Source of the DNA: a virus
Reading direction: 5' to 3' (one strand)
DNA length: 64,000 bases
Virus record (IMG/VR): IMGVR_UViG_3300042350_003419
Span: 1-64,000 of that record
Positions within the stretch are counted from its first letter, which is position 1. Each line of letters begins with the position of its first letter. Below the pieces are notes generated by a model. The model saw nothing but the letters and a program-made list of their open reading frames with translations, was not told the DNA's origin and did not search any database. This document shows, in pieces, positions 2,391-63,580 of the stretch. The translations under genes and the position numbers were made by a program.

Positions 2391-2645
2391 ATGACTTTTA
2401 AATTAACACAAGAACAGACCGAAACTATTCAAGCAGTATTTGATAAACAATCAACCAAAAATGGTGACTATGATTGCTGGGAAGGAATAAACAAACAAAT
2501 TCAAAAACAAACTGAATCCGGCATTCGTGTAAATGAAGAAGGGGAAGAAGAAATTCTAATTTTTTATATGGAAAGACATGGGGAATCACGCCCGATACCA
2601 GACCTGGCATTTTCTATTCATAAAGTGAAAGTCCATAGAGATTGA
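2391..2645 (+). CDS. Hypothetical protein (84 aa)
   Basis: Starts with MTFKLTQEQTETIQ two bases after the upstream stop and is acidic throughout (EEGEEEILIF). No domain recognised. An in-frame TTG at 2379 lies inside the previous gene; ATG 2391 is preferred. Last gene of the small-gene run before the homing endonuclease. Confidence 0.55.
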   Translation: MTFKLTQEQTETIQAVFDKQSTKNGDYDCWEGINKQIQKQTESGIRVNEEGEEEILIFYMERHGESRPIPDLAFSIHKVKVHRD

Positions 2646-2703
2646 GATTATAACCAAACTACACAAAATGTCGTTTGGACATAAATAACATTAGTTATAA
2701 CTC
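2644..2703 (+). promoter_or_regulatory. Inverted repeat enclosing a T4-type late promoter
   Basis: TTATAAC (2648-2654) pairs with GTTATAA (2694-2700), extended by GAG/CTC across one bulge. CCAAAC..GTTTGG is a nested stem. CATAAATA (2680-2687) is a late promoter inside the repeat, so late RNA would start near 2693 and keep only the 3' arm. Read-through RNA would fold just upstream of ATG 2709. Confidence 0.6.
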
Positions 2704-2708
2704 TTCTA

Positions 2709-3158
2709 ATGGAACTCGACGGAATTACTTACAAACAATCAAAAACTTATCCTGACATTTATGTTAGTGCTTGTGGTAAAATTCTAAATGTGAAACCTAT
2801 TGGAAGACTTGATAAACGAGATGGTTATGTTAATGTTAGAAGTAAAAGATTACATCAACTTGTGGTAGAATGTTGGGGGGATAAAAAACCAAAGGGTAAG
2901 GATTGGTGTATAGATCATATTGATGAAAATAAAACTAACAATAAAGTTGAAAACCTAAGATGGTTGCCCCGATCAGAAAACACAAGAAGGTCTCATTTGG
3001 GAAGACCAGAACCCAAAAAAGGAAGATTGCAAATGGATGATGGTATAAAGCAAAAAATTAAAAATCTTTCAGAGCAAGGATTGTCTCAAAGAAAGATTGC
3101 TGATATTATGGGCAAAAACCAACGAAGTATTTGGAATGTATTAAATGAGGTTTATTAA
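2709..3158 (+). CDS. Free-standing HNH homing endonuclease
   Basis: 149 aa. An N-terminal NUMOD4-like part (YPDIYVSACGKILNV) is followed by an HNH_3 nuclease core (WCIDHIDENKTNNKVENLRW, residues about 76-95), then a C-terminal helix-turn-helix (GLSQRKIADIMG). Such enzymes cut intron- or gene-free alleles in co-infecting phage and are copied in by repair. It sits between the clamp gene block and gp44 and overlaps the gp44 start by one base (TAATG). Its own late promoter lies in an inverted repeat just upstream. Confidence 0.88.
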   Translation: MELDGITYKQSKTYPDIYVSACGKILNVKPIGRLDKRDGYVNVRSKRLHQLVVECWGDKKPKGKDWCIDHIDENKTNNKVENLRWLPRSENTRRSHLGRPEPKKGRLQMDDGIKQKIKNLSEQGLSQRKIADIMGKNQRSIWNVLNEVY

Positions 3159-4102
3159 TGAGTAAAGATTTTTTGTTTGTGGAAAAGTATCGTCCTCGTA
3201 AAATTGAGGATTGTATTCTTCCTGATGGTATCAAAAAAACATTTTTGGATTTTGTTAAGAAGGGGGAAATCCCAAATCTCCTTCTTGCTGGACCCCCAGG
3301 AGTAGGTAAAACTACAGTAGCAAAAGCATTATGTGAAGAACTTGGAGTAGATTATTATGTCATTAACGGATCCGACGAAGGACGTTTCTTGGATACTGTA
3401 CGGAACCAAGCAAAGAACTTTGCTTCGACCGTCTCACTTCAAGGAAATGACAAGCACAAAGTCATCATTGTGGATGAGAGTGATAACACGACCGCCGATG
3501 TTCAACTCTTATTGCGGGCAAATATTGAGACGTTTTATAATAACTGCAGATTCATCTTCACCTGTAACTACAAGAACAAAATTATTGAACCCCTCCATTC
3601 CCGTTGTGCCGTCATCGACTTCACAATCAAAGGGAAGCAGAAGCAACAACTTGCTGGAGCATTCTTCAAACGTCTCCAAACGATCTTGGATACGGAAAGA
3701 ATTGAATATGATGAAAAGGTCATTGCAGAACTGGTCTCAAAACATTTTCCAGATTTTCGTCGCGTTCTTAATGAATGCCAAAGGTATTCTACTGGTGGGA
3801 AAATTGACACTGGAATTCTTGCATCTTTCTCAGACGTTTCAGTAAATGAACTCATCAAGAATCTCAAAGAAAAGAATTTCACAGAAGTCCGTAAGTGGGT
3901 GGTCTCCAACCTTGATAATGATGCTCCGGTCTTACTTCGTAGGATTTATGACGCTTCTTATGATTATTTACTTGCCCAATCTATTCCTGCTGCTGTTCTC
4001 ATTATTGCTAAGTATCAGTATCAGTCAGCTTTTTGTGTTGATCAGGAGATAAATCTTTTGGCAGCATTAACTGAAATAATGGTGGAGTGTGAGTTTCGAT
4101 GA
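3158..4102 (+). CDS. 44: Clamp loader large subunit gp44 (AAA+ ATPase)
   Basis: 314 aa, close to T4 gp44 (319 aa). Walker A GPPGVGKT is at residues 45-52 and Walker B VIIVDES at about 102-108, followed by sensor-1 FIFTCN and the arginine-finger-type HSRC. With gp62 it forms the ATPase that opens the gp45 ring and loads it on primer-template. The start overlaps the HNH stop, and the end overlaps the next start by four bases. Confidence 0.95.
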   Translation: MSKDFLFVEKYRPRKIEDCILPDGIKKTFLDFVKKGEIPNLLLAGPPGVGKTTVAKALCEELGVDYYVINGSDEGRFLDTVRNQAKNFASTVSLQGNDKHKVIIVDESDNTTADVQLLLRANIETFYNNCRFIFTCNYKNKIIEPLHSRCAVIDFTIKGKQKQQLAGAFFKRLQTILDTERIEYDEKVIAELVSKHFPDFRRVLNECQRYSTGGKIDTGILASFSDVSVNELIKNLKEKNFTEVRKWVVSNLDNDAPVLLRRIYDASYDYLLAQSIPAAVLIIAKYQYQSAFCVDQEINLLAALTEIMVECEFR

Positions 4103-9921: not shown

Positions 9922-10055
9922 TGGACTTGCCAATTAATGACAAAGAGTTGGATACTATTATTAGTGCAATGCGACTTGGTGGAGACTCTGCTCTTTATCA
10001 AAAACTTTGGACTTATAAAATGAATTATTTTGATAATAAAAAAGAGGATAAATAA
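9921..10055 (+). CDS. 44-aa conserved protein after gp43
   Basis: MDLPINDKELDTIISAMRLG, then GGDSALYQKLW. Starts on the last base of the gp43 stop codon (TAATG). Short peptides with this DxxELxxIISAxRxGG pattern follow gp43 in other cyanophages as far as I recall. It is predicted to be helical; function unknown. Confidence 0.65.
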   Translation: MDLPINDKELDTIISAMRLGGDSALYQKLWTYKMNYFDNKKEDK

Positions 10056-10062
10056 TAATATC

Positions 10063-10154
10063 TGTTGAACCCGCAAACTCTACAGATAAGATTAGGTGCT
10101 CTTCGGGCACCTTTTCTAATATAAACTATTATAAATAATAGTGCGGGTTTAATA
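10063..10154 (+). promoter_or_regulatory. Long-range hairpin enclosing a terminator and a late promoter
   Basis: 10063-10074 pairs with 10143-10154 over 12 bp (two G-U pairs). Inside lie a terminator hairpin (AGGTGC/GCACCT, 10094-10112, then T4) and TATAAATA (10130-10137), itself centred in the perfect palindrome 10125-10142. Late RNA starting near 10143 would carry only the 3' arm, nine bases from ATG 10163. Confidence 0.65.
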
Positions 10155-10162
10155 GAGTAGAA

Positions 10163-10945
10163 ATGAACTATCTAAAGATTTATTGTAGTCTCATCAGGAA
10201 AGCAGAGAATAGAACTCCGCCTGAAGGTTACACAGAAAAGCATCATACCTTTCCTAAAAGTATCTTTGGGGACAATAGTAGAATTGTAGTACTTACGGCA
10301 AGAGAGCATTATATCGCTCACGCATTATTAGAAAAGATTTGTATTAAAAGATACGGATTAAAAGATAGAAAAACAATAAAAATGATTCACTCGCATATTT
10401 TAATGAAATCAAAAGGTAAATATTATAATTCTTATCTTTATGAAAGTGCAAGATTTAGAATATCTGAATCAAAGAAAGGTAAAAAACCATATGTTATGAC
10501 CGAGAAAACTAAAAATAAAATGAGTGAATATTCTAAAAATAGAAATGAAGAACATAAGAAAAAATTGAGCGAATCATTAAAAGGTAGAATACCTCCTAAT
10601 TATGGAAAATCACATTCTGAAGAAACTAAAAGAAAAATAAGTCAAAAAAATACAGGTAGAAAAGCATCGGAAGAAACACGAAACAAATTAAGTGAATGTA
10701 AAAAAGGTGAAAAACATTTTTTGTATGGAAAGAAAAGAGATATTGAAGTTGTAAATAAAATAGTGGAGAAAAAAAGTAAAGATTTTTCTATTATAAATCC
10801 AAAAGGTGAAATAATCTGTGGGAAAAATATAGCAGAATTTTGTAGGGAAAATGATTTAGATAAGGCAACCATATGTAATATGCTTAACCATAAAAGAGGA
10901 ATAAAATCTCATAAAGGATATCGCGCTGTCCCTCAAAATATTTGA
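10163..10945 (+). CDS. HNH homing endonuclease with NUMOD3 repeats
   Basis: 260 aa. The nuclease core is EKHHTFPKSIFG followed by LTAREHYIAHALLEKI (residues about 25-60). Several Lys/Ser/Gly-rich repeats (KKLSESLKGR, KRKISQKNTGR, NKLSECKKGE) are NUMOD3 DNA-binding modules, and a NUMOD1-like helix-turn-helix closes the protein. It is related to the enzymes that split uvsX and gp41 downstream. Placed between gp43 and the uvsX leader genes, with a late promoter and hairpin upstream. Confidence 0.9.
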   Translation: MNYLKIYCSLIRKAENRTPPEGYTEKHHTFPKSIFGDNSRIVVLTAREHYIAHALLEKICIKRYGLKDRKTIKMIHSHILMKSKGKYYNSYLYESARFRISESKKGKKPYVMTEKTKNKMSEYSKNRNEEHKKKLSESLKGRIPPNYGKSHSEETKRKISQKNTGRKASEETRNKLSECKKGEKHFLYGKKRDIEVVNKIVEKKSKDFSIINPKGEIICGKNIAEFCRENDLDKATICNMLNHKRGIKSHKGYRAVPQNI

Positions 10946-11153: not shown

Positions 11154-11382
11154 AAACAGAACACCAAAACAAATAGGAAATGATATTATCCTTTGTGATG
11201 ATGGAACACTATGGAGATGGAACACTAATTTAGGGTTTTCCTCCTATATTTCTGGATGGGAAAAATTACCTCCAATTCCAACTGATGAGGACTATGAAGT
11301 TCTTCAACAAGAAAGAATGGAAGCAGATAGAAAGTGGATAGAAAAACAAACTGAAAGAGGAGTTGCAAAAGTTTATGACTGA
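11146..11382 (+). CDS. Hypothetical protein (78 aa)
   Basis: Contains a Trp-rich core (DDGTLWRWNTNLG, ISGWEKLPPIP) and an acidic C-terminal helix. The G-T-L-W-R pattern resembles single beta-propeller or WD-like blades, but one unit is too little to assign. It overlaps the uvsX start by eight bases and is probably co-translated with it. Confidence 0.55.
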   Translation: MIENRTPKQIGNDIILCDDGTLWRWNTNLGFSSYISGWEKLPPIPTDEDYEVLQQERMEADRKWIEKQTERGVAKVYD

Positions 11383-12322
11383 TTCTAAATCAAGTTTTTT
11401 ACAACAAATTATAAAAGAAATTGGTGGAGAATACACACAACTTGCTTCAGAGATTAATGAAACTGAAACTTTTGTGGATACGGGTTCGTACATTTTTAAT
11501 GCTCTTGTATCCGGCAGTATATTTGGTGGTGTATCTGGGAATAAGATTACTGCAATCGCAGGTGAGAGTTCTACGGGAAAGACTTTCTTCTCTCTTGCCG
11601 TCGTTAAAAATTTCCTTGATAATAATCCTACTGGATATTGTCTGTATTTTGATACTGAAGCAGCAATCACAAAATCCCTTCTGGAAAGTAGGGGAGTTGA
11701 CACAACTCGTTTGGTGGTTGTCAATGTCGTAACCGTAGAAGAGTTTCGTGGAAAGGCACTTAAGGCAGTTGACCTTTATATGAAGAAACCAGAAGGTGAA
11801 CGTAATCCTTGTATGTTCGTGCTAGATTCTCTAGGAATGCTCTCCACCAGCAAAGAGATTAATGATGCTTTGAATGATAAAGAAGTTCGGGATATGACTA
11901 AATCTCAACTAATTAAGGGTGCATTCCGTATGCTGACTCTTAAATTGGGTCAGGCAAAAATTCCTATGTTAGTTACTAATCATACTTATGATGTTATTGG
12001 TGCATATGTTCCTACTAAAGAAATGGGAGGTGGTTGCTTAGTTGCCGGAACTAAGATACAAACAGTAAAAGGTTCTGTTCCTATTGAATCTATTAAAGTT
12101 GGAGACAAAGTAAGAACTATGTTTGGATACTCTTATGTTGCTGATACTTTTTGTTTTAATGATAAAGAAGTGTTTGAGATGGAATTGGAGGATGGTGAAA
12201 TTGTTAAATGTAGTGCAGATCATAAATTTTTAGTGGATACTGAAAACGGTTATGAATGGAAAAAGGTAATTGATCTTTTGCCTGGAGATGCAATCAAATG
12301 CATTCCAACAATTTCAATATGA
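11375..12322 (+). CDS. uvsX: UvsX recombinase N-terminal part fused to N-intein
   Basis: 315 aa: 220 residues of UvsX, then a 95-aa N-intein. UvsX is the RecA-like strand-exchange protein; Walker A GESSTGKT is at residues 63-70. The host protein is interrupted after MGGG, at the DNA-binding loop region, by Cys1 (codon 12035). The intein has block A (CLVAGTKIQT) and block B with CSADHKFL, and ends at a stop codon. The C-intein and the rest of UvsX are encoded at 13001. ATG 11375 is chosen over TTG 11363 because GAGGAG lies a workable 12 bases upstream. Confidence 0.9.
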   Translation: MTDSKSSFLQQIIKEIGGEYTQLASEINETETFVDTGSYIFNALVSGSIFGGVSGNKITAIAGESSTGKTFFSLAVVKNFLDNNPTGYCLYFDTEAAITKSLLESRGVDTTRLVVVNVVTVEEFRGKALKAVDLYMKKPEGERNPCMFVLDSLGMLSTSKEINDALNDKEVRDMTKSQLIKGAFRMLTLKLGQAKIPMLVTNHTYDVIGAYVPTKEMGGGCLVAGTKIQTVKGSVPIESIKVGDKVRTMFGYSYVADTFCFNDKEVFEMELEDGEIVKCSADHKFLVDTENGYEWKKVIDLLPGDAIKCIPTISI

Positions 12323-12326
12323 AAAT

Positions 12327-12365
12327 AGGTTCTGGTCTAAATAGTAATACTTAAGACCAGAACCT
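12327..12365 (+). promoter_or_regulatory. Perfect 12-bp inverted repeat with late promoter in the loop
   Basis: 12327-12338 pairs perfectly with 12354-12365. CTAAATA (12337-12343) begins at the stem edge, so late RNA would start near 12349 and contain only the 3' arm. Read-through from uvsX would fold the hairpin directly against ATG 12367. Confidence 0.75.
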
Positions 12366-12366
12366 A

Positions 12367-13035
12367 ATGTTTATAATAAACAAATATACAAGTTGCTACT
12401 TTCGTATTATAGAAAGAGCAAAGGAAAGAGAAATCAATGGCATTACAGAAAGGCACCACATCATTCCCAAATCATTTGGAGGTAAAAATACAAAAGATAA
12501 TTTAGTAAATTTAACTCCAAGAGAACATTTCATCTGTCATCATTTATTATTAAAGATGGTTGAGGGTGAGTATAAGAAAAAAATGTGTTATGCTTTTTAT
12601 CGTATGTGTTCTATTAATGGTAATGGAGTTAGGTGTAAGAATCTAAATTCTTATGATAGAATAAGGAGAAGTTATTCTCATTTAACTTCAGGTGAGAATA
12701 ATCCTTTCTATGGAAGAGGGCATTATGGACAAAATAATCCAATGTTTAATCCTGTTGTTCGTGAAAAACATAGACAAACTGTTTCTTCTCCAGAACATAG
12801 AAAAATGATGAGTGAAAGGATGAGTGGAGAGTCTAATCCATTCTTCAACAAAACGCACTCAGAACAAACAAAAAAAATTCTTTCGGAACTGGCATCTGAA
12901 AGAAAAGGAGAGAAGTCTCCTCGTTATGGAAAAAAACACAGGCAGGTTGTCTGTGAGCACTGTCAGAAACAAATAACATACCCAATGTATAAGAGGTGGC
13001 ATGGAACGAATTGTAAAGTCTATCAAAAAAGTTGA
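12367..13035 (+). CDS. HNH homing endonuclease inserted in the uvsX intein
   Basis: 222 aa. Core [13 protein letters not shown] then [16 protein letters not shown] (residues about 22-60), NUMOD3-like repeats ([17 protein letters not shown]), and a C-terminal zinc-type C..C...RWHGTNCK. It sits between the two halves of the split intein and overlaps the C-intein gene by 35 bases. It probably spreads the fractured allele by cutting uncut uvsX. It belongs to the same HHxxPK family as the enzymes at 10163 and 14638. Confidence 0.9.
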
Positions 13036-13471
13036 AACAGAAGAAGTATATGACATTACTGTGGAGGGGGAACATCATTACATACTTCATGGAGGTATTG
13101 TCTCCCACAACTCTGGTCTTAAGTATGCTGCTTCTACAATCATCTATCTCAGCAAAAAGAAAGAAAAAGAAGGGACAGAAGTCATCGGAAATATTATTAA
13201 GGCAAAGACTCATAAATCACGTTTAAGTAAGGAAAATCAAGAAGTTGAAGTTCGTCTTTATTATGACGAGCGTGGTCTTGATCGTTACTATGGTCTTCTT
13301 GAGCTTGGGGAATTGGGCGAAATGTGGAAGAATGTAGCGGGGCGATATGAAATTGATGGTAAGAAAATTTATGCCAAGGAAATTCTCAAGAACCCAGAGA
13401 AATACTTCACTGAAGAGGTAATGGAAAAACTTGATGTGATTGCTAAGGGTGAATTTTCCTATGGCGTATGA
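13001..13471 (+). CDS. uvsX: C-intein fused to UvsX C-terminal part
   Basis: 156 aa: a 37-residue C-intein with block F ([17 protein letters not shown]) and block G ending SHN, then the Ser+1 extein [13 protein letters not shown] and 118 further UvsX residues. Trans-splicing with the product at 11375 would give about 339 aa, the usual length for cyanophage UvsX. AAGAGG at 12991-12996 is a good ribosome site. It overlaps the endonuclease gene at its start and the next gene by four bases. Confidence 0.9.
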
Positions 13472-14021: not shown

Positions 14022-14654
14022 ATGGAACGACTTGAACTTACAATTCTTAGAAACTTAATATTCAATGAAGATTATGCCAGAAAGGTCATTCCATTTATTC
14101 AACCAGAATACTATGAACAAAGAACAGAAAAAATAGTCTTTGAGGAAATTGTTGAGTTTATTGTTAAGTACGGGTCTTCAATTACCATAGAAGCACTTAA
14201 TATTGAGATTGATAATCGTAGAGATTTAACCGAATCTGAAAATAAGGAAATCTCAGAATTACTTTCCAAACTTAATGATGCTCCAGTTGATAAACAGTGG
14301 ATTCTTGATACTACCGAAAAGTGGTGTCGTGACAGAGCAATTTATCTGGCACTTATGGAATCCATTCATATTGCTGATGGAAAGGATGAAAAGAAGAATC
14401 GTGATGCCATTCCAAGTATTCTTTCGGATGCCCTAGCAGTATCTTTTGATAATAATATTGGTCACGATTATCTTCAAAATTATGAGGAACGTTATGAATT
14501 TTATCACCGTAAAGAAGATAAAATCGAATTTGATTTGGAATATTTCAACAAAATCACTAAAGGTGGTTTACCTAACAAGACTCTCAATATTGCTCTCGCT
14601 GGTTGCGTTCATCCAGAAACTAGAGTTAAAATTAGATTTAGGAAGATTTCTTGA
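14022..14654 (+). CDS. 41: gp41 replicative helicase N-terminal part with ultra-short N-intein
   Basis: 210 aa: 194 residues of the DnaB-like gp41 helicase, ending LNIALAG, then a 16-residue N-intein, CVHPETRVKIRFRKIS, and a stop. The break lies within the Walker A loop (AG|TGVGKS after splicing), so neither half can bind ATP alone. Block B is absent here and found instead in the C-part at 15340. The last 17 bases overlap the endonuclease on the opposite strand, so that insertion sets the intein end. Confidence 0.92.
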   Translation: MERLELTILRNLIFNEDYARKVIPFIQPEYYEQRTEKIVFEEIVEFIVKYGSSITIEALNIEIDNRRDLTESENKEISELLSKLNDAPVDKQWILDTTEKWCRDRAIYLALMESIHIADGKDEKKNRDAIPSILSDALAVSFDNNIGHDYLQNYEERYEFYHRKEDKIEFDLEYFNKITKGGLPNKTLNIALAGCVHPETRVKIRFRKIS

Positions 14655-15306
14655 TTTTGGAATTTGGTGCTGGTTCTCCAGTTCCAAACTTCCAACCTTC
14701 ATTTAGTTTTATATCAACTTCTTCTGGGGATACTCTTTTCCATCCCTTTGTTCCCGGTAAATGCATTACCTTTTTGCCTTTATGTGCTTTTCCCCCTAAT
14801 GATGCTCGTGTTTTTCTTCCTTCATTAGATGCCCAATAATTGAATTCTGTGGATGCTCTTTGTTTTCCTCCAATTGATGCTCTTTCCTTTCTGCCTTCTT
14901 CTGTGCTCCAATAATAGAAATTTTTAGTATTATTGATTAGATATTCTTGTTTTTGTATTTCTATTCCTTTTAGTCTCCAATCTTTTCTTTCTTCTACTGG
15001 GATTGAGAAGAACCCAATTTGATTATCTCTACAAAATTCTCCTATTATTTTTCTGTGTTGGGGTGTTATATTTGCCCCCAACATTTTCATAGACCTTAAA
15101 TCATTTGGATTTTTATAAATTTTCCAAAGCAAATAATGTGCTATGATATGTTCTCTTACACTTAAATAAGTGAGATTTTCTTCACTATCATCTCCCCCCA
15201 TATGTTTTGGAGTAATATGGTGTTCGTGTAACCCAGAATATTTTTTATAATTGTCTTTTCTTGACCTATTGCTTTCGCATAGATTATAATAGATTTGACT
15301 AAACAT
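14638..15306 (-). CDS. Antisense HNH homing endonuclease splitting gp41
   Basis: 222 aa. Core LHEHHITPKHMGGDD then LSVREHIIAHYLLWKIY (residues about 27-62), followed by repeats with G-G-K-x-R-A-S that resemble NUMOD modules. It is the only homing gene on the - strand, with a ribosome site AGGGGA and a late promoter (15328-15335, - strand) upstream. It lies inside the intein of gp41, between the 16-residue N-part and the 125-residue C-part. Confidence 0.88.
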   Translation of the reverse strand: MFSQIYYNLCESNRSRKDNYKKYSGLHEHHITPKHMGGDDSEENLTYLSVREHIIAHYLLWKIYKNPNDLRSMKMLGANITPQHRKIIGEFCRDNQIGFFSIPVEERKDWRLKGIEIQKQEYLINNTKNFYYWSTEEGRKERASIGGKQRASTEFNYWASNEGRKTRASLGGKAHKGKKVMHLPGTKGWKRVSPEEVDIKLNEGWKFGTGEPAPNSKIKKSS

Positions 15307-15327
15307 TTCCCCTGTCCCTGCTACTAC

Positions 15328-15335
15328 TATTTATA
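15328..15335 (-). promoter_or_regulatory. Late promoter for the antisense endonuclease
   Basis: TATAAATA on the - strand (TATTTATA on +), 22 bases upstream of the start codon at 15306, the usual late-promoter distance here. It lies in the 33-base gap between the divergent genes. Confidence 0.65.
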
Positions 15336-15339
15336 CAAA

Positions 15340-16512
15340 ATGTGGATTGAAAAAGAAACATCAATTGCTGAAATCAAAACATTACTTGATAATGGATATG
15401 AAGTGGAGGTCGATTCTCCCGATGGATATGTTCCTGTTAATTTTTTTATTAATAAAGGAATGTACGAAGAATATAAGTTATATTTGTTAGATAATACTAA
15501 AGTAAAATGTAACGAAAGTCATTTATTTGAAACTACTGACGGATGGATTTCTGCTAAAGAAATAGAGCAATCTAATTCATATTATGAATTTATTACTAGT
15601 GATGGTATTAGAATTGGTAAGATTATTAAAACTAATAATCAAATACCTATTGTGGATATTAATGTAAATCATCCAAATCATAGGTATTATACTAATGGGG
15701 TTTCCTCCCATAATACTGGCGTTGGAAAATCTCTGTTCATGTGCCACGTTGCTAGTGCCGCGTTGCTACAGGGTAGGAACGTGCTCTACATCACTCTTGA
15801 AATGGCGGAAGAAAGAATTGCAGAAAGAATTGATGCAAACCTTCTCAATGTTCCGATTCAGCAATTGGTTGATTTGCCACGTTCGGCATTTGAGAAGAAA
15901 GTAACCGGTATTGCGAAGAAGACTCAAGGTACTTTAGTAATTAAAGAGTATCCTACTGCTTCGGCACACTCGGGGCATTTTAAGGCACTTCTAAATGAAC
16001 TTGCTCTTAAGAAATCATTCCGACCTGATATTATCTTTATTGACTATCTGAATATTTGTTCTTCGTCACGATTTAAGAGTGGTAGTAATATTAATTCTTA
16101 TACTTTGGTTAAGTCTATTGCCGAAGAACTTCGTGGTTTGGCAGTTGAGTTTAATGTGCCAATTGTGAGTGCCACACAAACGACAAGAAGCGGTTTTGGT
16201 TCTTCTGATGTTGAATTGACCGATACTTCAGAATCCTTTGGTCTTCCTGCTACTGCCGACCTTATGTTTGCTTTGATTAGCACGGAGGAACTTGAAGGTC
16301 TGGGGCAGATTATGGTCAAGCAACTTAAAAATAGATATAATGATCCAACAATCTTTAAGCGTTTTGTTGTTGGTATTGACCGTGCTAAAATGCGTCTTTA
16401 TGATTGTGAACAGTCTGCCCAAAAAGACATACTTGACAGTGGGCAGGAAGAGGAGTATAATTATGAAGAAAATAAACCAAAAAAATCATTTGAGGGATTT
16501 AAGTTTTCATGA
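15340..16512 (+). CDS. 41: Long C-intein fused to gp41 helicase C-terminal part
   Basis: 390 aa. Residues 1-125 are intein: block B-like CNESHLFETTDGW (about 57-69), block F VDINVNHPNHRYYTNG, and block G ending SSHN. The extein begins at Thr+1 (codon 15715) with TGVGKSLF, completing Walker A, and continues with helicase motifs (ITLEMAEERIAERID; DIIFIDYLNI as Walker B). Spliced gp41 would be about 459 aa (T4 475). ATG 15340 is the first start after the endonuclease. Four-base overlap with mazG. Confidence 0.93.
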   Translation: MWIEKETSIAEIKTLLDNGYEVEVDSPDGYVPVNFFINKGMYEEYKLYLLDNTKVKCNESHLFETTDGWISAKEIEQSNSYYEFITSDGIRIGKIIKTNNQIPIVDINVNHPNHRYYTNGVSSHNTGVGKSLFMCHVASAALLQGRNVLYITLEMAEERIAERIDANLLNVPIQQLVDLPRSAFEKKVTGIAKKTQGTLVIKEYPTASAHSGHFKALLNELALKKSFRPDIIFIDYLNICSSSRFKSGSNINSYTLVKSIAEELRGLAVEFNVPIVSATQTTRSGFGSSDVELTDTSESFGLPATADLMFALISTEELEGLGQIMVKQLKNRYNDPTIFKRFVVGIDRAKMRLYDCEQSAQKDILDSGQEEEYNYEENKPKKSFEGFKFS

Positions 16513-35210: not shown

Positions 35211-35298
35211 GGTATCACGGGTGAAGGAGGTCCAAACTTCTTATAAATCCCACACCTCCCATGCCTCTCAACGATGCACAAACAGGGAGGTTCCTTAT

Positions 35299-36861: not shown

Positions 36862-36913
36862 TACCCTTGAAATATGCTATTATTATAAATAGTAATAAAA
36901 TATTTGTAGGGTA
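36862..36913 (+). promoter_or_regulatory. Hairpin enclosing a late promoter and covering a start codon
   Basis: TACCCT (36862-36867) pairs with AGGGTA (36908-36913), and AAATAT (36870-36875) with ATATTT (36900-36905). TATAAATA (36884-36891) is inside. The 3' arm includes the A of ATG 36913 and the only ribosome-site-like bases. Confidence 0.68.
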
Positions 36914-37473
36914 TGTCTAATAAAAAAGCAGTTTCTGATTATAGAAGAAGAGCAAAAGAATATGCTTTAAAAGCATTTAAAGAAAAATGTGGAATATGTG
37001 GATATAATAAATGTATCGGGGCATTAGAGTTTCATCACTTAAATCCTGATGAAAAAGATTTTGGTTTATCTTCAAAAGGAGTAACTCGTGCTTGGAGTAA
37101 AGTTTCTGATGAACTCAAAAAATGTGTTTGTCTTTGTGCTAACTGTCACAGAGAAGTTCATAATGATATTACCAGTATTCCAGATGATGTGGTAAGATTT
37201 GATGAGGAATATACTATTTGGAAAAGTGAGTTTACTAAAAAAATGATTCCTTGTCCAGTATGTAATTCTGAAATGTCTATTAGGCAGAAATATTGCTCTG
37301 ATAAATGTGCTAAAAAGGTTAGAGAAAAGGCAAACTATCCAAGTGATGAAGAACTTTTAGAAATGGTTAAAAGTTATGGTTATTCTCATACTGGTAGAGT
37401 TTTTGGTGTAAATGGAAATTCTATTAAAAAAAGATTACAGCGACGAGGACTATTGACAACTACGTCAAAATAA
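36913..37473 (+). CDS. HNH endonuclease in the tRNA bank
   Basis: 186 aa. CGICGYNKC..LEFHHLNPDEK and CLCANCHREVH form an HNH nuclease with a zinc-binding Cys set (about 26-86). A second knuckle CPVCNSEMSIRQKYCSDKC and a C-terminal helix-turn-helix (GYSHTGRVFGVNGNSIKKRL) follow. It is a free-standing homing gene placed between tRNA-Asn and tRNA-Thr, expressed late behind a hairpin. Confidence 0.88.
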   Translation: MSNKKAVSDYRRRAKEYALKAFKEKCGICGYNKCIGALEFHHLNPDEKDFGLSSKGVTRAWSKVSDELKKCVCLCANCHREVHNDITSIPDDVVRFDEEYTIWKSEFTKKMIPCPVCNSEMSIRQKYCSDKCAKKVREKANYPSDEELLEMVKSYGYSHTGRVFGVNGNSIKKRLQRRGLLTTTSK

Positions 37474-42233: not shown

Positions 42234-42354
42234 AACCAAGTGGTGGAGTCAAGTTCAAACCCTGATTTGCCCTCGTCGTATGGGCATTATAAGTGACGAC
42301 TGGTGCGGATGGGACTCTCTCCCGCCTGGTTTCTTATTTCCAGTCAAAGAATAA
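42184..42354 (+). CDS. Possible 56-aa protein overlapping the membrane gene
   Basis: An open frame with protein-like composition: NFSWFRKTKWWSQVQTLICP, then ISDDWCGWDSLPPGFLFPVK. Only TTG 42184 or the internal ATG 42280 could start it, and no ribosome site is clear. It fills an otherwise empty gap. Could be a real small gene or the tail of a decayed one. Confidence 0.35.
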   Translation: MAFLRYQNYPNFSWFRKTKWWSQVQTLICPRRMGIISDDWCGWDSLPPGFLFPVKE

Positions 42355-42378
42355 GTGGCGAGCCTAAAGACCCCAAAG

Positions 42379-59599: not shown

Positions 59600-59636
59600 A
59601 AACTCTACCTCTAAATAAGGGGTAGAGTTTTTTTTT
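59600..59636 (+). terminator. Terminator with late promoter in its loop
   Basis: AAACTCTACC (59600-59609) pairs perfectly with GGTAGAGTTT (59621-59630), then T-run. CTAAATA (59611-59617) lies in the loop, 22 bases before ATG 59640, so late RNA starts inside the hairpin. Confidence 0.88.
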
Positions 59637-59851: not shown

Positions 59852-60016
59852 CAACAACAAGTTAAGGAATGTAACAAAACCTTAACGTTGTCCTCTGCCT
59901 AACCGAGACCTATGGGGAGGTTAAACACAGTCTCTCATACCCACGATGGAGGGTGTCGTGGGGAATACTTGTACCGTTCAGTTCCCCCTGGACACATACT
60001 TACCCTTTAACGAAAA
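59852..60016 (+). promoter_or_regulatory. Structured psbA leader RNA
   Basis: About 165 bases without a gene. GTTAAGG/CCTTAAC (59861-59867 with 59880-59886) and CCCACGA/TCGTGGG (59940-59946 with 59956-59962) are good stems; GGGGAA/TTCCCC could form an alternative with the second. No clear ribosome site before ATG 60017. Likely regulates psbA translation or stability. Confidence 0.6.
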
Positions 60017-61308
60017 ATGACTGCTACAATCGCTACACGTCGCCCAACTACTTCGGCGTGGAACTCATTCTGTGAATGGATTACTTCAACGAACAACCGC
60101 CTTTATGTTGGTTGGTTCGGAACTCTGATGATTCCAACGTTGCTTGCTGCAACTATTTGTTTCATCGTCGCCTTCATTGCCGCACCCCCGGTGGACATTG
60201 ACGGTATTCGTGAACCTGTTGCTGGTTCACTCATGTACGGAAACAACATCATCTCTGGTGCTGTTGTTCCTTCAAGCAACGCCATTGGTCTTCACTTCTA
60301 TCCCATCTGGGAAGCAGCAAGTCTTGATGAATGGCTTTATAACGGTGGACCTTTCCAACTTGTTGTATTTCACTTCCTCATTGGCATCTACTGCTATATG
60401 GGACGTGAATGGGAACTCTCATACCGTCTAGGTATGCGTCCTTGGATTATGGTTGCTTACAGTGCTCCTGTTGCTGCTGCATCTGCTGTATTCCTGGTTT
60501 ATCCTTTCGGACAAGGTTCATTCTCTGATGCGATGCCTCTGGGCATCTCCGGAACATTCAACTACATGCTTGTGTTCCAGGCAGAGCACAACATCCTGAT
60601 GCACCCCTTCCATATGCTTGGAGTTGCTGGTGTGTTCGGTGGTTCTCTGTTCAGTGCTATGCACGGTTCTCTTGTGACTTCTTCACTGGTTCGTGAAACC
60701 ACAGAAACTGAGTCACAGAATTATGGTTATAAGTTTGGTCAAGAAGAAGAGACTTATAACATCGTGGCTTGACAGAGCGGGTCACGTTAAACTGGGTGAA
60801 CTGCTGGAAACCTAAGTCCTTTATGGATATGGCAATCAGCATCCAAGTCCTAGATACATCTAGGAAAGGTTCAGAGACTACCTGAGGGATACAGTTCCCT
60901 TAATAACAGGCAAGAGCGCCCAGCACCTTTAATAGGTGAAGATATAGTCCAACCCTTAAGGAAACTTTTGGACAATTGGCTCACGGTTACTTTGGACGAC
61001 TCATTTTCCAATATGCTTCGTTCAATAATTCTCGTTCACTTCACTTCTTCCTCGCCGCTTGGCCCGTTGTGGGCATCTGGTTTACTGCTCTAGGCGTAAG
61101 CACTATGGCATTCAACCTCAACGGACTAAATTTCAATCAGAGTATTCTGGATAGTCAAAACCGGGTAATTCCTACTTGGGCGGACATATTGAACAAATCT
61201 GGGTTGGGTATGGAAGTTATGCACGAGAGAAATGCACATAATTTTCCTTTAGATTTGGCTGCAGCAGAAACAACTTCGGTTGCTCTAACTGCTCCTTCTA
61301 TCGGTTGA
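60017..61308 (+). CDS. psbA: Photosystem II D1 protein, interrupted by a group I intron (whole gene)
   Basis: Exon 1 60017-60769 (251 codons), exon 2 60979-61308. Spliced product 360 aa, the normal D1 precursor length; joining gives [12 protein letters not shown] at the junction, the usual D1 sequence. The protein replaces damaged host D1 and keeps photosynthesis running during infection. Exon 1 holds the membrane core; exon 2 has the C-terminal part ending ALTAPSIG. Unspliced, it stops right after exon 1 (TGA 60770-60772). Confidence 0.97.
60770..60978 (+). ncRNA. Group I intron in psbA
   Basis: 209 nt, no reading frame. Exon 1 ends in T (60769), which forms the conserved U-G pair in P1 with the guide GGTCAC (60780-60785). 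GTTCAGAGACTA (60869-60880) and AAGATATAGTCC (60939-60950) are the P7 halves (GACTA/TAGTC). It ends in G (60978). Likely mobile through the endonuclease at 61392. Confidence 0.93.
60979..61308 (+). CDS. psbA: psbA exon 2
   Basis: Begins GCT-CAC directly after the intron's final G and encodes [19 protein letters not shown] through the D1 end ALTAPSIG. It holds C-terminal residues of the manganese cluster site ([15 protein letters not shown]). No start codon of its own is needed. Confidence 0.95.
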
Positions 61309-61367
61309 TATAATCACTAAATTGTGATATAATGAAGAGACCTGTAAAGGTCTCTTTTTTATAAATA
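61305..61367 (+). promoter_or_regulatory. Promoter, terminator and late promoter in tandem
   Basis: TTGATA (61305-61310), 17 bases, TATAAT (61328-61333). Then AAGAGACCT/AGGTCTCTT (61335-61343 with 61348-61356) and T-run ending psbA, fused to TATAAATA (61360-61367). GGTCT of the stem could also pair with AGACC near ATG 61392. Confidence 0.75.
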
Positions 61368-61391
61368 ATAATATCCGTGAGCAGACCACAA

Positions 61392-62006
61392 ATGAATATA
61401 AAATATACTGATAAGGATAGGGAGATTTGGAAACAAATGTATTTGTCTGGTTTATCCTCCCACGAAATTGGAAGACAACTAAACATACCAAGAGTTTCCG
61501 TATATAAGTATCTTAAAACAATTGGTGTAACAAGAAACTTTTCTGAATGGCAGGTTGGTAAAGAACCTTGGAATAAAGGAAAGAAAACAGGTCAAAAAGT
61601 TTGGAATAAAGGATTAACCAAAGAAACTGATGAAAGAGTCAAAAAATATGGAGAAAAAATAAAGGGCAATAATTGCCAAAATCCTTGGAAAGAAAGATAT
61701 TTTGATACTGATTATTTGTATTTGGTTATTGTTTATCTTGAAGGTAAACTGGTTTATAAGGTTGGAAGAAGTTTCAACAAATTAGCAAATCACACAAAAA
61801 ATAAATTACATAGTGTAATTAAAATATGGAAAGGAATTCATTATCAAGTTCATCATCTTGAAAAGTTCATTCATCAAAAATACCAAGATTATAAAATTGA
61901 TTTTGAATCCAAGGACGCTGGACATACTGAGTGTTATATGGTAGAATTGCCCATAACTGAAATCATCAACCTTACAGAAAAAACATTAAAACATTATGAT
62001 TACTAA
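61392..62006 (+). CDS. Homing endonuclease next to the psbA intron (HTH plus GIY-YIG-like)
   Basis: 204 aa from ATG 61392; GTG 61377 is an alternative. An N-terminal helix-turn-helix (GLSSHEIGRQLNIPRVSVYK) is followed by two NUMOD-like KPWNKGKK repeats, then a nuclease part with YLYLVIVYLEGKLVYKVGRS, HHLEKFIHQKY and AGHTECYMVEL that resembles GIY-YIG/MUG113 proteins. S-PM2 also has a homing enzyme beside its psbA intron. The family here is my inference. Overlaps the next gene by 11 bases. Confidence 0.8.
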   Translation: MNIKYTDKDREIWKQMYLSGLSSHEIGRQLNIPRVSVYKYLKTIGVTRNFSEWQVGKEPWNKGKKTGQKVWNKGLTKETDERVKKYGEKIKGNNCQNPWKERYFDTDYLYLVIVYLEGKLVYKVGRSFNKLANHTKNKLHSVIKIWKGIHYQVHHLEKFIHQKYQDYKIDFESKDAGHTECYMVELPITEIINLTEKTLKHYDY

Positions 62007-62351: not shown

Positions 62352-62612
62352 ATGAAACAACTAACAACAGAACAAATCAAAACACTGGAAGATGCTTTTG
62401 TAAGTTATCCAGAGGACTTTCCAACAACTTCTAATTATGCATCAATGGAAGGAATTCAAACACAACTGAATCAACTTAAAGATGATATAGGACGTATTTA
62501 CTATATTAGTAAAGTTAGTAAAAATCAAAAAGTCAATGCATATAATTTTACAATGAATGCAATGGAAGTCGGAATTCAGGAACGAGATACTAATGATAAA
62601 CCCAATAATTAA
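62352..62612 (+). CDS. Hypothetical protein (86 aa)
   Basis: MKQLTTEQIKTLEDAFVSYP then QLNQLKDDIGRIYYISKVSK. Mainly helical. First gene after a probable promoter. No family recognised. Confidence 0.55.
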   Translation: MKQLTTEQIKTLEDAFVSYPEDFPTTSNYASMEGIQTQLNQLKDDIGRIYYISKVSKNQKVNAYNFTMNAMEVGIQERDTNDKPNN

Positions 62613-62625
62613 AAGCACCAATAAT

Positions 62626-62745
62626 ATGAGTCACAATCCTCAACACGAACCTATGGAACCTTGGATAATCTGGGCAGGCGTAGGTATTATGATGTTCACA
62701 GTTATCATATTTGTCATATTTACTCTTTCAGTAATGTATTTTTAA
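62626..62745 (+). CDS. 39-aa membrane peptide
   Basis: MSHNPQHEPMEPWIIWAGVG then IMMFTVIIFVIFTLSVMYF. One long hydrophobic span. It lies with the next, even smaller, membrane peptide. Possibly a photosystem-like or lysis-related peptide; unknown. Confidence 0.55.
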   Translation: MSHNPQHEPMEPWIIWAGVGIMMFTVIIFVIFTLSVMYF

Positions 62746-62749
62746 GAAT

Positions 62750-62824
62750 ATGTTTTTCATTCTCACAGTCTTCATACTCTTCGGAATCTTTATGTTTATA
62801 ATGTCAGTAACACAAGACCTCTAA
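62750..62824 (+). CDS. 24-aa membrane peptide
   Basis: MFFILTVFILFGIFMFIMSV then TQDL. Almost entirely one membrane helix, like petN/psbM-type small subunits. No direct evidence for expression beyond position and composition. Confidence 0.45.
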   Translation: MFFILTVFILFGIFMFIMSVTQDL

Positions 62825-62869
62825 GAATCCTACATATAAAAGAACACAGTATAATGGGTGGAGATTAAA

Positions 62870-63580
62870 ATGAGTTCAAATTTTGATACAGTCTTCGTCA
62901 GTGATGTTCATCTTGGGACTCCAAGATGTAATACTGAAAAGTTCTTAAAGTTTTTAAAAGAACTCAAAACTAAAAAGTTAGTAATGGTAGGTGATATTAT
63001 AGACATCTACTGTATGGAAAAATATAATACTCGTTGGACAAAAGAACATACCGAGTGTGTTCATCAAATCTTAAATCTTGCTAAAAGGGGAACAGAGGTC
63101 ATTTATATTCTTGGAAATCACGAAGGGCAAATTCGTCGCTACTGTGATTTTGAACATAAGAACTTCCGAATGGTAGATGAATATACGCATAAAGATTCAA
63201 AAGGTAATAAGTTTCTTTGTGTTCACGGAGATAAGTATTCCGAGTATTCATCCGGTTCCTGGAAACAATTAATGTTTAATAAAGGATATGAATTGATTAC
63301 ACCGATCAGTTTGTTCCTGGAAAGATTCTTCAGATTCTCTTTGGTTTATGCACTGAAGAATAGTGTTCGGGGTAAGAACTATATCAATCAATATGAGACT
63401 GATATTGCATCATATTGTGTTCAGAGAGATAAGAAATATGACGGAGTAATTTGTGGTCACATACATTCCGGAAATATTCGTAAGTTTAATAAAATTACTT
63501 ATATGTGTTGCGGAGATTGGTGCGATACATGTTCTGCAATTGTAGAAAGAAACGGCGTATATTGCTTGGAAAAGTATTGA
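62870..63580 (+). CDS. Metallophosphoesterase (LpxH/calcineurin-like)
   Basis: 236 aa. Metal motifs in order: VSDVHLG (DxH), MVGDIID (GD), ILGNHEG (GNHE), VHGDKYS, and CGHIHSGNI (GHxH). The order and spacing fit the LpxH-like group. It may act on a UDP-sugar lipid or other phosphodiester; the phage substrate is unknown. GGTGGAG supports ATG 62870 over GTG 62858. Confidence 0.88.
   Translation: MSSNFDTVFVSDVHLGTPRCNTEKFLKFLKELKTKKLVMVGDIIDIYCMEKYNTRWTKEHTECVHQILNLAKRGTEVIYILGNHEGQIRRYCDFEHKNFRMVDEYTHKDSKGNKFLCVHGDKYSEYSSGSWKQLMFNKGYELITPISLFLERFFRFSLVYALKNSVRGKNYINQYETDIASYCVQRDKKYDGVICGHIHSGNIRKFNKITYMCCGDWCDTCSAIVERNGVYCLEKY

Follow-up and report, generated by a model that had tools for sequence, protein, structure and literature searches.

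The window analysed here is a stretch of 64,000 nucleotides from an 81,974-base virus record (IMG/VR IMGVR_UViG_3300042350_003419), which was judged by its gene content to come from a T4-like cyanophage. Its uvsX gene is divided by a split intein with a homing endonuclease gene between the intein halves, and a perfect hairpin at positions 12326–12366 encloses a late-promoter motif and adjoins the start codon of that endonuclease. This region is probably a combined late-promoter, operator and hairpin control element of the endonuclease cassette. A second endonuclease gene, at 10163, is preceded by a predicted RNA module that is the larger novelty of the two. Coordinates are collected in Table 1. 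Homologue comparisons were drawn from sequence searches, and relatives are labelled L followed by a number.

The uvsX hairpin and its predicted late promoter

The hairpin is real. The 12-bp perfect arms reported in the initial annotation (12327–12338 and 12354–12365) were verified, and the pairing extends to 13 bp by the 12326/12366 pair. The 3′ end of the stem directly adjoins ATG 12367, and the loop is 15 nt long (TAGGTTCTGGTCT ... AGACCAGAACCTA). This is the sole perfect stem of at least 12 bp with a 3–25 nt loop in the 64 kb, compared with 0.5 stems of such size in dinucleotide shuffles, or 0.025 when at least six G/C are required. The RNA fold of the hairpin scores −23.6 versus −8.3 ± 2.7 for shuffles, a z of −5.75.

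The motif CTAAATA was located, as first annotated, at the edge of the 5′ arm (12337–12343), 23 nt ahead of the ATG, and is kept in homologues. Cyanophage late promoters have the form NATAAATA (PMC2984593), and Aeh1 has a late-promoter variant with C at −12 (PMC2988020). At the corresponding position L007 and L225 show TATAAATA, and the distant L015 and L016 show GATAAATA. N[AC]TAAATA occurs between −45 and −9 of all seven HNH/GIY-type endonuclease genes versus 8 of 67 other genes (Fisher p 3.6e-6). By analogy with T4 late-promoter spacing, the late RNA is predicted to start in the hairpin loop and to lack the 5′ arm. The start region is predicted to be unpaired at 0.10 in the read-through RNA versus 0.66 in the late RNA, and in the predicted fold the pairing covers the start-codon region rather than a Shine-Dalgarno sequence.

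Split intein setting and homing-site mimic

The endonuclease had been placed correctly in uvsX, although its split-intein setting was overlooked. The intein N and C motifs are on separate open reading frames that flank the nuclease gene, which lies between the intein halves and overlaps the uvsX C half by 35 bases. The same order of N-intein, endonuclease and C-intein is repeated in the contigs of relatives fetched with the endonuclease. In L228 and L230 the uvsX intein is unsplit, in one open frame, and the endonuclease, the late motif and the hairpin are all absent; their DNA is 97% identical to that of the split relative L237 up to the insertion point. Because the three are absent together, hairpin, promoter and endonuclease form one present-or-absent unit. 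The unsplit intein version of L228 and L230 is found at 3001–3756, and its N and C sides resemble different relatives, which suggests recombination.

The strongest result at the hairpin locus emerged while an operator role of the repeat was being tested. The bottom strand of 12347–12364, GGTTCTGGTCTTAAGTAT, matches uvsX across the insertion point (GGT^TCTGGTCTTAAGTAT) at 18 of 18 positions, a stretch that is continuous only in uvsX without the intein. The best of 2000 shuffles reached 13/18, and the match over 18 loci ranges from 14 to 18 of 18. The mimic overlaps the predicted late transcript start. The parallel to T4 I-TevI drawn in the initial annotation stands, and this 18-bp copy of the homing site had escaped it. 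The mimic implies that the target of the enzyme is intein-less uvsX, and with an enzyme of this target the split intein and the endonuclease would be one mobile element.

Proposed mechanism, conservation and alternatives

From features read in the sequence, namely the hairpin, the motif, the mimic, the presence or absence of the cassette and one compensatory change, we infer promoter use, binding, repression, a translation block and homing. With uvsX taken as an early gene by analogy with T4, the two arms would pair in early read-through RNA and bury the start codon. Translation would wait for late RNA without the 5′ arm, the T4-type late promoter CTAAATA starting the endonuclease messenger RNA (mRNA) inside the hairpin loop. 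The endonuclease would also bind the mimic on its own late promoter, repressing it as I-TevI does, and would target intein-less uvsX, mobilising the whole split intein.

Among seven close relatives, changes number 16/91 in the 5′ arm, 1/105 in the loop and promoter and 0/91 in the 3′ arm. The frozen portion is therefore the promoter and the mimic, and the 3′ arm is invariant because the mimic lies there. In a second clade the stem remains perfect or nearly so, with a compensatory double change from T-A to A-T. Conservation of the repeats in homologous loci, a check proposed at the outset, thus holds for the 3′ arm and for the stem of the second clade, but not for the 5′ arm, which is degraded in five close relatives. 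This degradation weighs against the proposed mechanism, as do several further observations: the distant L015 and L016 retain the promoter without the hairpin, RNA covariation at the hairpin amounts to a single event, a consensus Shine-Dalgarno sequence was not found in the leader ACTTAAGACCAGAACCTAATG, the mimics of the second clade reach only 14–16 of 18, and the plain CTAAATA motif shows no enrichment (13 occurrences versus 18 expected). Decay of the 5′ arm implies that sequestration of the start is not strictly required and, with promoter and mimic nearly invariant, the RNA hairpin looks like a secondary layer. Of all steps in the mechanism, the part played by the 5′ arm is the least secure. 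The initially proposed I-TevI-like restriction to late RNA agrees with the geometry, the predicted opening and the contrast to gp41 described below, and not with a strict need for the 5′ arm.

The inverted repeat might instead work as DNA only, as an operator or as inverted half-sites for the endonuclease, the RNA hairpin being a by-product. The 18-bp homing-site mimic, an inverted 11-nt copy in the 5′ arm and the retention of the 3′ arm where pairing is lost all fit this explanation. It is nonetheless unlikely, because the promoter-in-hairpin arrangement recurs with unrelated arms at unrelated endonucleases (L085/L092, S-SRM01 gp207, 36913) and because the helix is absent where sense read-through is not expected. 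That arms without regulatory function are relics of target-site sequence, copied in homing or recombination, is improbable; the mimic does equal the junction and the 5′ arm decays freely, but the promoter and the 3′ arm are frozen across loci with changed uvsX codons and the stem is kept in the second clade. Finally, the structure could be read as an intrinsic terminator at the end of the uvsX N half with CTAAATA in its loop by chance, and a genuine terminator with TCTAAATA in the loop exists at 59610. This reading of 12327–12365 was rejected for want of a T run after the stem (CTAATGTTTATAA); a terminator would moreover cut off the downstream uvsX C half, and homologues retain the motif and lose the stem, so that we give it hardly any weight.

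Endonucleases in gp41, gp43 and phage S-SRM01

The HNH endonuclease in the gp41 split intein is encoded antisense, and early sense read-through should not reach it. Its late promoter is kept in 67 of 69 loci, and a promoter-enclosing helix was found in none of 44 distinct homologous regions, as would be predicted for a helix whose role is protection from sense read-through. An atypical intein, its N fragment only about 17 residues long, divides the gp41 helicase gene itself (14022–16512), and the antisense HNH gene lies between the halves.

A mimic at the codon level is suggested for gp41. The pattern GCNGGNACNGGN (GCN GGN ACN GGN = A-G-T-G), which was picked after the sequences had been inspected, occurs in 28 of 39 distinct leaders of gp41-endonuclease homologues, synonymous variants included, and once in the window. 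When letter identity was searched instead, the top matches were not at the junction. Four distant relatives of this endonuclease (L201, L202, L203 and L208) have a structured late leader of the GTAGGTCGCGG..ACCTAC type, about 60–85 nt upstream of the homing endonuclease gene.

Endonuclease families of split gp43 reuse the promoter-in-hairpin design independently (L085–L087, L092, L012). The cultured phage S-SRM01 has eight late promoters that a significant helix spans; every one of them stands ahead of an endonuclease-type gene, compared with 0 of 47 others. Two cases that at first looked like non-nuclease exceptions are an endonuclease VII-like and a GIY-YIG-like gene. One of the eight promoters, that of gp207, lies in a perfect 19-bp hairpin: TATAAATA occupies the loop, and the stem includes the ATG. 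A third design, seen at gp152 (L294:27640–27770), L074 and L078, consists of one long hairpin that may be a terminator and has a loop complementary to sequence adjoining the start codon. At gp253 (L296:12690–12746), an endonuclease gene situated between uvsX and gp41, the hairpin AAGTATGGTTAGTAACCATACTT falls entirely within the late leader, immediately ahead of the ATG.

An RNA module ahead of the 10163 endonuclease

Similar structures had been annotated ahead of the endonucleases at 2709, 10163, 36913 and 40821. A late motif precedes all four genes. The claim is borne out most clearly at 10163, where the structure is much stronger and of another design; those at 36913 and 2709 are present in the window and rarely in homologues. 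The hairpin at 36913 has a z of −3.4 in the window and z < −3 in 2 of 8 homologues. At 2709 the z is −3.5, and the promoter-enclosing helix is not conserved (2 of 27 homologues); a conserved inverted repeat, CCAAAC..GTTTGG, is found directly upstream of that late promoter (window 2640–2709; L242–L288) as a candidate operator. The 40821 structure was rejected (z −1.3, 0/5 homologues). Two non-endonuclease control sites in the window also have z < −3, the terminator at 59610 and one intragenic site.

The 10163 module comprises a late promoter P1, a hairpin holding the segment X, an intrinsic terminator, a second late promoter P2 and, where the endonuclease mRNA is predicted to begin, the segment X′ complementary to X. 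The X/X′ pairing spans 14 bp with nine doubly compensated pairs (RNAalifold, 19 homologues). In a set of 35 elements drawn from numerous endonuclease families, X/X′ pairing holds in 98.8% of cells, versus 31–39% for slid versions, and double-change cells number 119 versus 32 in shuffles. Modules were found in many different genomic positions, following upstream genes that are unrelated, and P1 was present throughout the family loci of this type. Among the matches listed, a pattern scan gave at least 73 distinct places, about 67 modules and at least 29 codes, with arm energies of −23.6 kcal/mol for matched and −12.8 kcal/mol for permuted arms; L325, L354, L363, L365 and L367 were set aside from these listed matches as chance matches. 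The genes behind the module are of NUMOD3/HNH, endonuclease VII-like and several GIY-YIG kinds, with a few that have no family match. A covariance model located the module in 25 of 34 phage records, which were chosen partly for holding the module or related endonucleases, with up to nine modules per record. Within one phage, X/X′ pairs of the same module average −23.5 and cross pairs −11.0, and 9 of 234 cross pairs reach −18.

The RNA from P1 would be roughly 60–70 nt long and consist of the hairpin and the terminator, and its first 14–16 bases would be antisense to the beginning of the endonuclease mRNA transcribed from P2. Net X/X′ binding after unfolding averages −15.3 kcal/mol, and both trans action by the small RNA and cis action within a read-through RNA are energetically possible. 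For the start codon at 10163, predicted openness is unchanged between the long RNA (0.49) and the late RNA (0.46), so that any block would act on the leader and not directly on the start codon. We lean towards the view that this is an undescribed RNA module travelling with unrelated families of homing endonucleases, its cassette-specific codes serving as orthogonal antisense locks, up to nine per phage and mostly without cross-pairing. No description of the module was found in searches of an open-access library, and Rfam returned no match to it at the gathering threshold and only chance-level matches at E ≤ 10. Model R1 under stricter filters gave no match in eight other cultured cyanophages or in T4-like phages of Klebsiella, Vibrio and Yersinia.

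In S-SRM01 (NC_070963.1; sites 62515–63273, 192466 and 51291), gp114, annotated as 'translation initiation factor 2', resembles a NUMOD3/GIY-YIG homing endonuclease behind the module, and the annotated starts of gp297 and gp075 fall inside the module.

Elsewhere in the window, psbA (60017–62006) is broken by a group I intron (60718–60971), with a T5orf172-type endonuclease gene and a late promoter downstream. Rfam matches to the abiF, wcaG and PhotoRC-II RNAs are found at 35255–35291, 42267–42369 and 59883–59976, respectively.

Table 1 Coordinates of the features discussed in the text.
Feature	Position	Strand	Basis
P1, late-promoter motif GATAAATA	10047–10054	+	in 26/26 family loci; 67/73 pattern matches listed
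Hairpin 1, holds X (10062–10075)	10060–10087	+	RNA fold/alignment
Intrinsic terminator	10095–10115	+	GGTGC..GCACC then TTTT
P2, late promoter of the 10163 endonuclease	10130–10137	+	motif
X′, complementary to X, at predicted 5′ end of endonuclease mRNA	10142–10155	+	14-bp helix
NUMOD3 homing endonuclease gene behind the module	10163–10945	+	profile matches
uvsX N half and intein N fragment (intein from 12035, stop 12320–12322)	11363–12322	+	open reading frame; PHROG UvsX 1e-72; Pfam RecA, Intein_splicing
5′ arm of hairpin	12326–12338	+	perfect pairing; variable among relatives
Late-promoter motif TCTAAATA	12336–12343	+	predicted RNA start about 12348–12350
Putative operator, 18-bp copy of intein-less uvsX insertion site	12347–12364	−	18/18 match
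3′ arm of hairpin, adjoining start codon	12354–12366	+	0/91 changes, 7 relatives
HNH/NUMOD3 homing endonuclease gene	12367–13035	+	Pfam NUMOD3, HNH; PHROG homing endonuclease 2e-45
Intein C fragment (to 13111) and uvsX C half	13001–13471	+	open reading frame and profile matches, junction mapping
Antisense HNH endonuclease in gp41 split intein	14638–15306	−	late promoter 15328–15335 (−); no enclosing hairpin
GCAGGGACAGGGG, suggested codon-level mimic (A-G-T-G) of gp41 insertion site	15309–15321	−	pattern GCNGGNACNGGN
Promoter-enclosing hairpin ahead of 36913 endonuclease	36862–36915	+	2/8 homologues z < −3

Discussion

The mechanism proposed for uvsX follows the known I-TevI/mobE type, in a new host element and with an operator that is stronger. 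In T4, a sequence matching the I-TevI homing site at 15/20 positions lies over the late promoter of I-TevI, which represses its own expression, and I-TevI, segB and Aeh1 mobE share a hairpin over the start with a late promoter that skips the 5′ arm (PMC2988022). The uvsX element resembles T4 I-TevI (PMC2988022, PMC3014915) in an endonuclease gene nested in an early or middle gene, a late promoter beside that gene, a hairpin formed only in the longer RNA and a homing-site-like operator over the late promoter. It differs in its host, a split intein rather than a group I intron, in an HNH/NUMOD3 rather than a GIY-YIG enzyme, in a mimic that matches the junction at 18/18 rather than the 15/20 of I-TevI, and in the lack of a visible Shine-Dalgarno sequence. 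With Aeh1 mobE and T4 segB it shares the start hairpin and the placement of the late promoter; those genes, however, are free-standing or in a ribonucleotide reductase gene, and in the passages of PMC2988022 consulted no homing-site mimic is described for them.

The order of N-intein, endonuclease gene and C-intein in a phage recombination or replication gene is also that of the 'fractured genes'. Under that name Dassa et al. reportedly described, in 2009, free-standing endonucleases with split inteins on either side. We know of no account of expression control in them, nor of a homing-site mimic that ties the enzyme to the intein site.

In type I toxin-antitoxin pairs such as tisB/istR-1 and zorO/orzO, an antisense RNA is encoded near its target. 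The 10163 module is similar in that a small RNA is encoded beside the target and is complementary to the target's 5′ leader. It is unlike these pairs in that it is directed at a homing endonuclease, its code differs from one cassette to another, and its two RNAs would both be transcribed from one strand by phage late promoters. Our guess is that the promoter-in-hairpin design belongs to endonucleases lying within essential genes, since a terminator at such a place would deprive the host gene of its downstream half, and the terminator module to those between genes.

The uvsX mimic gives the free-standing endonuclease a testable role, in that it should cut intein-less uvsX and thereby move the whole split intein. 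With split inteins that have the endonuclease and fused inteins that lack it at the same site, the origin of split inteins also becomes testable. If confirmed, the 10163 module would add to the phage regulatory RNAs a new class whose private codes have diversified, and its presence in the cultured S-SRM01 opens it to experiment.
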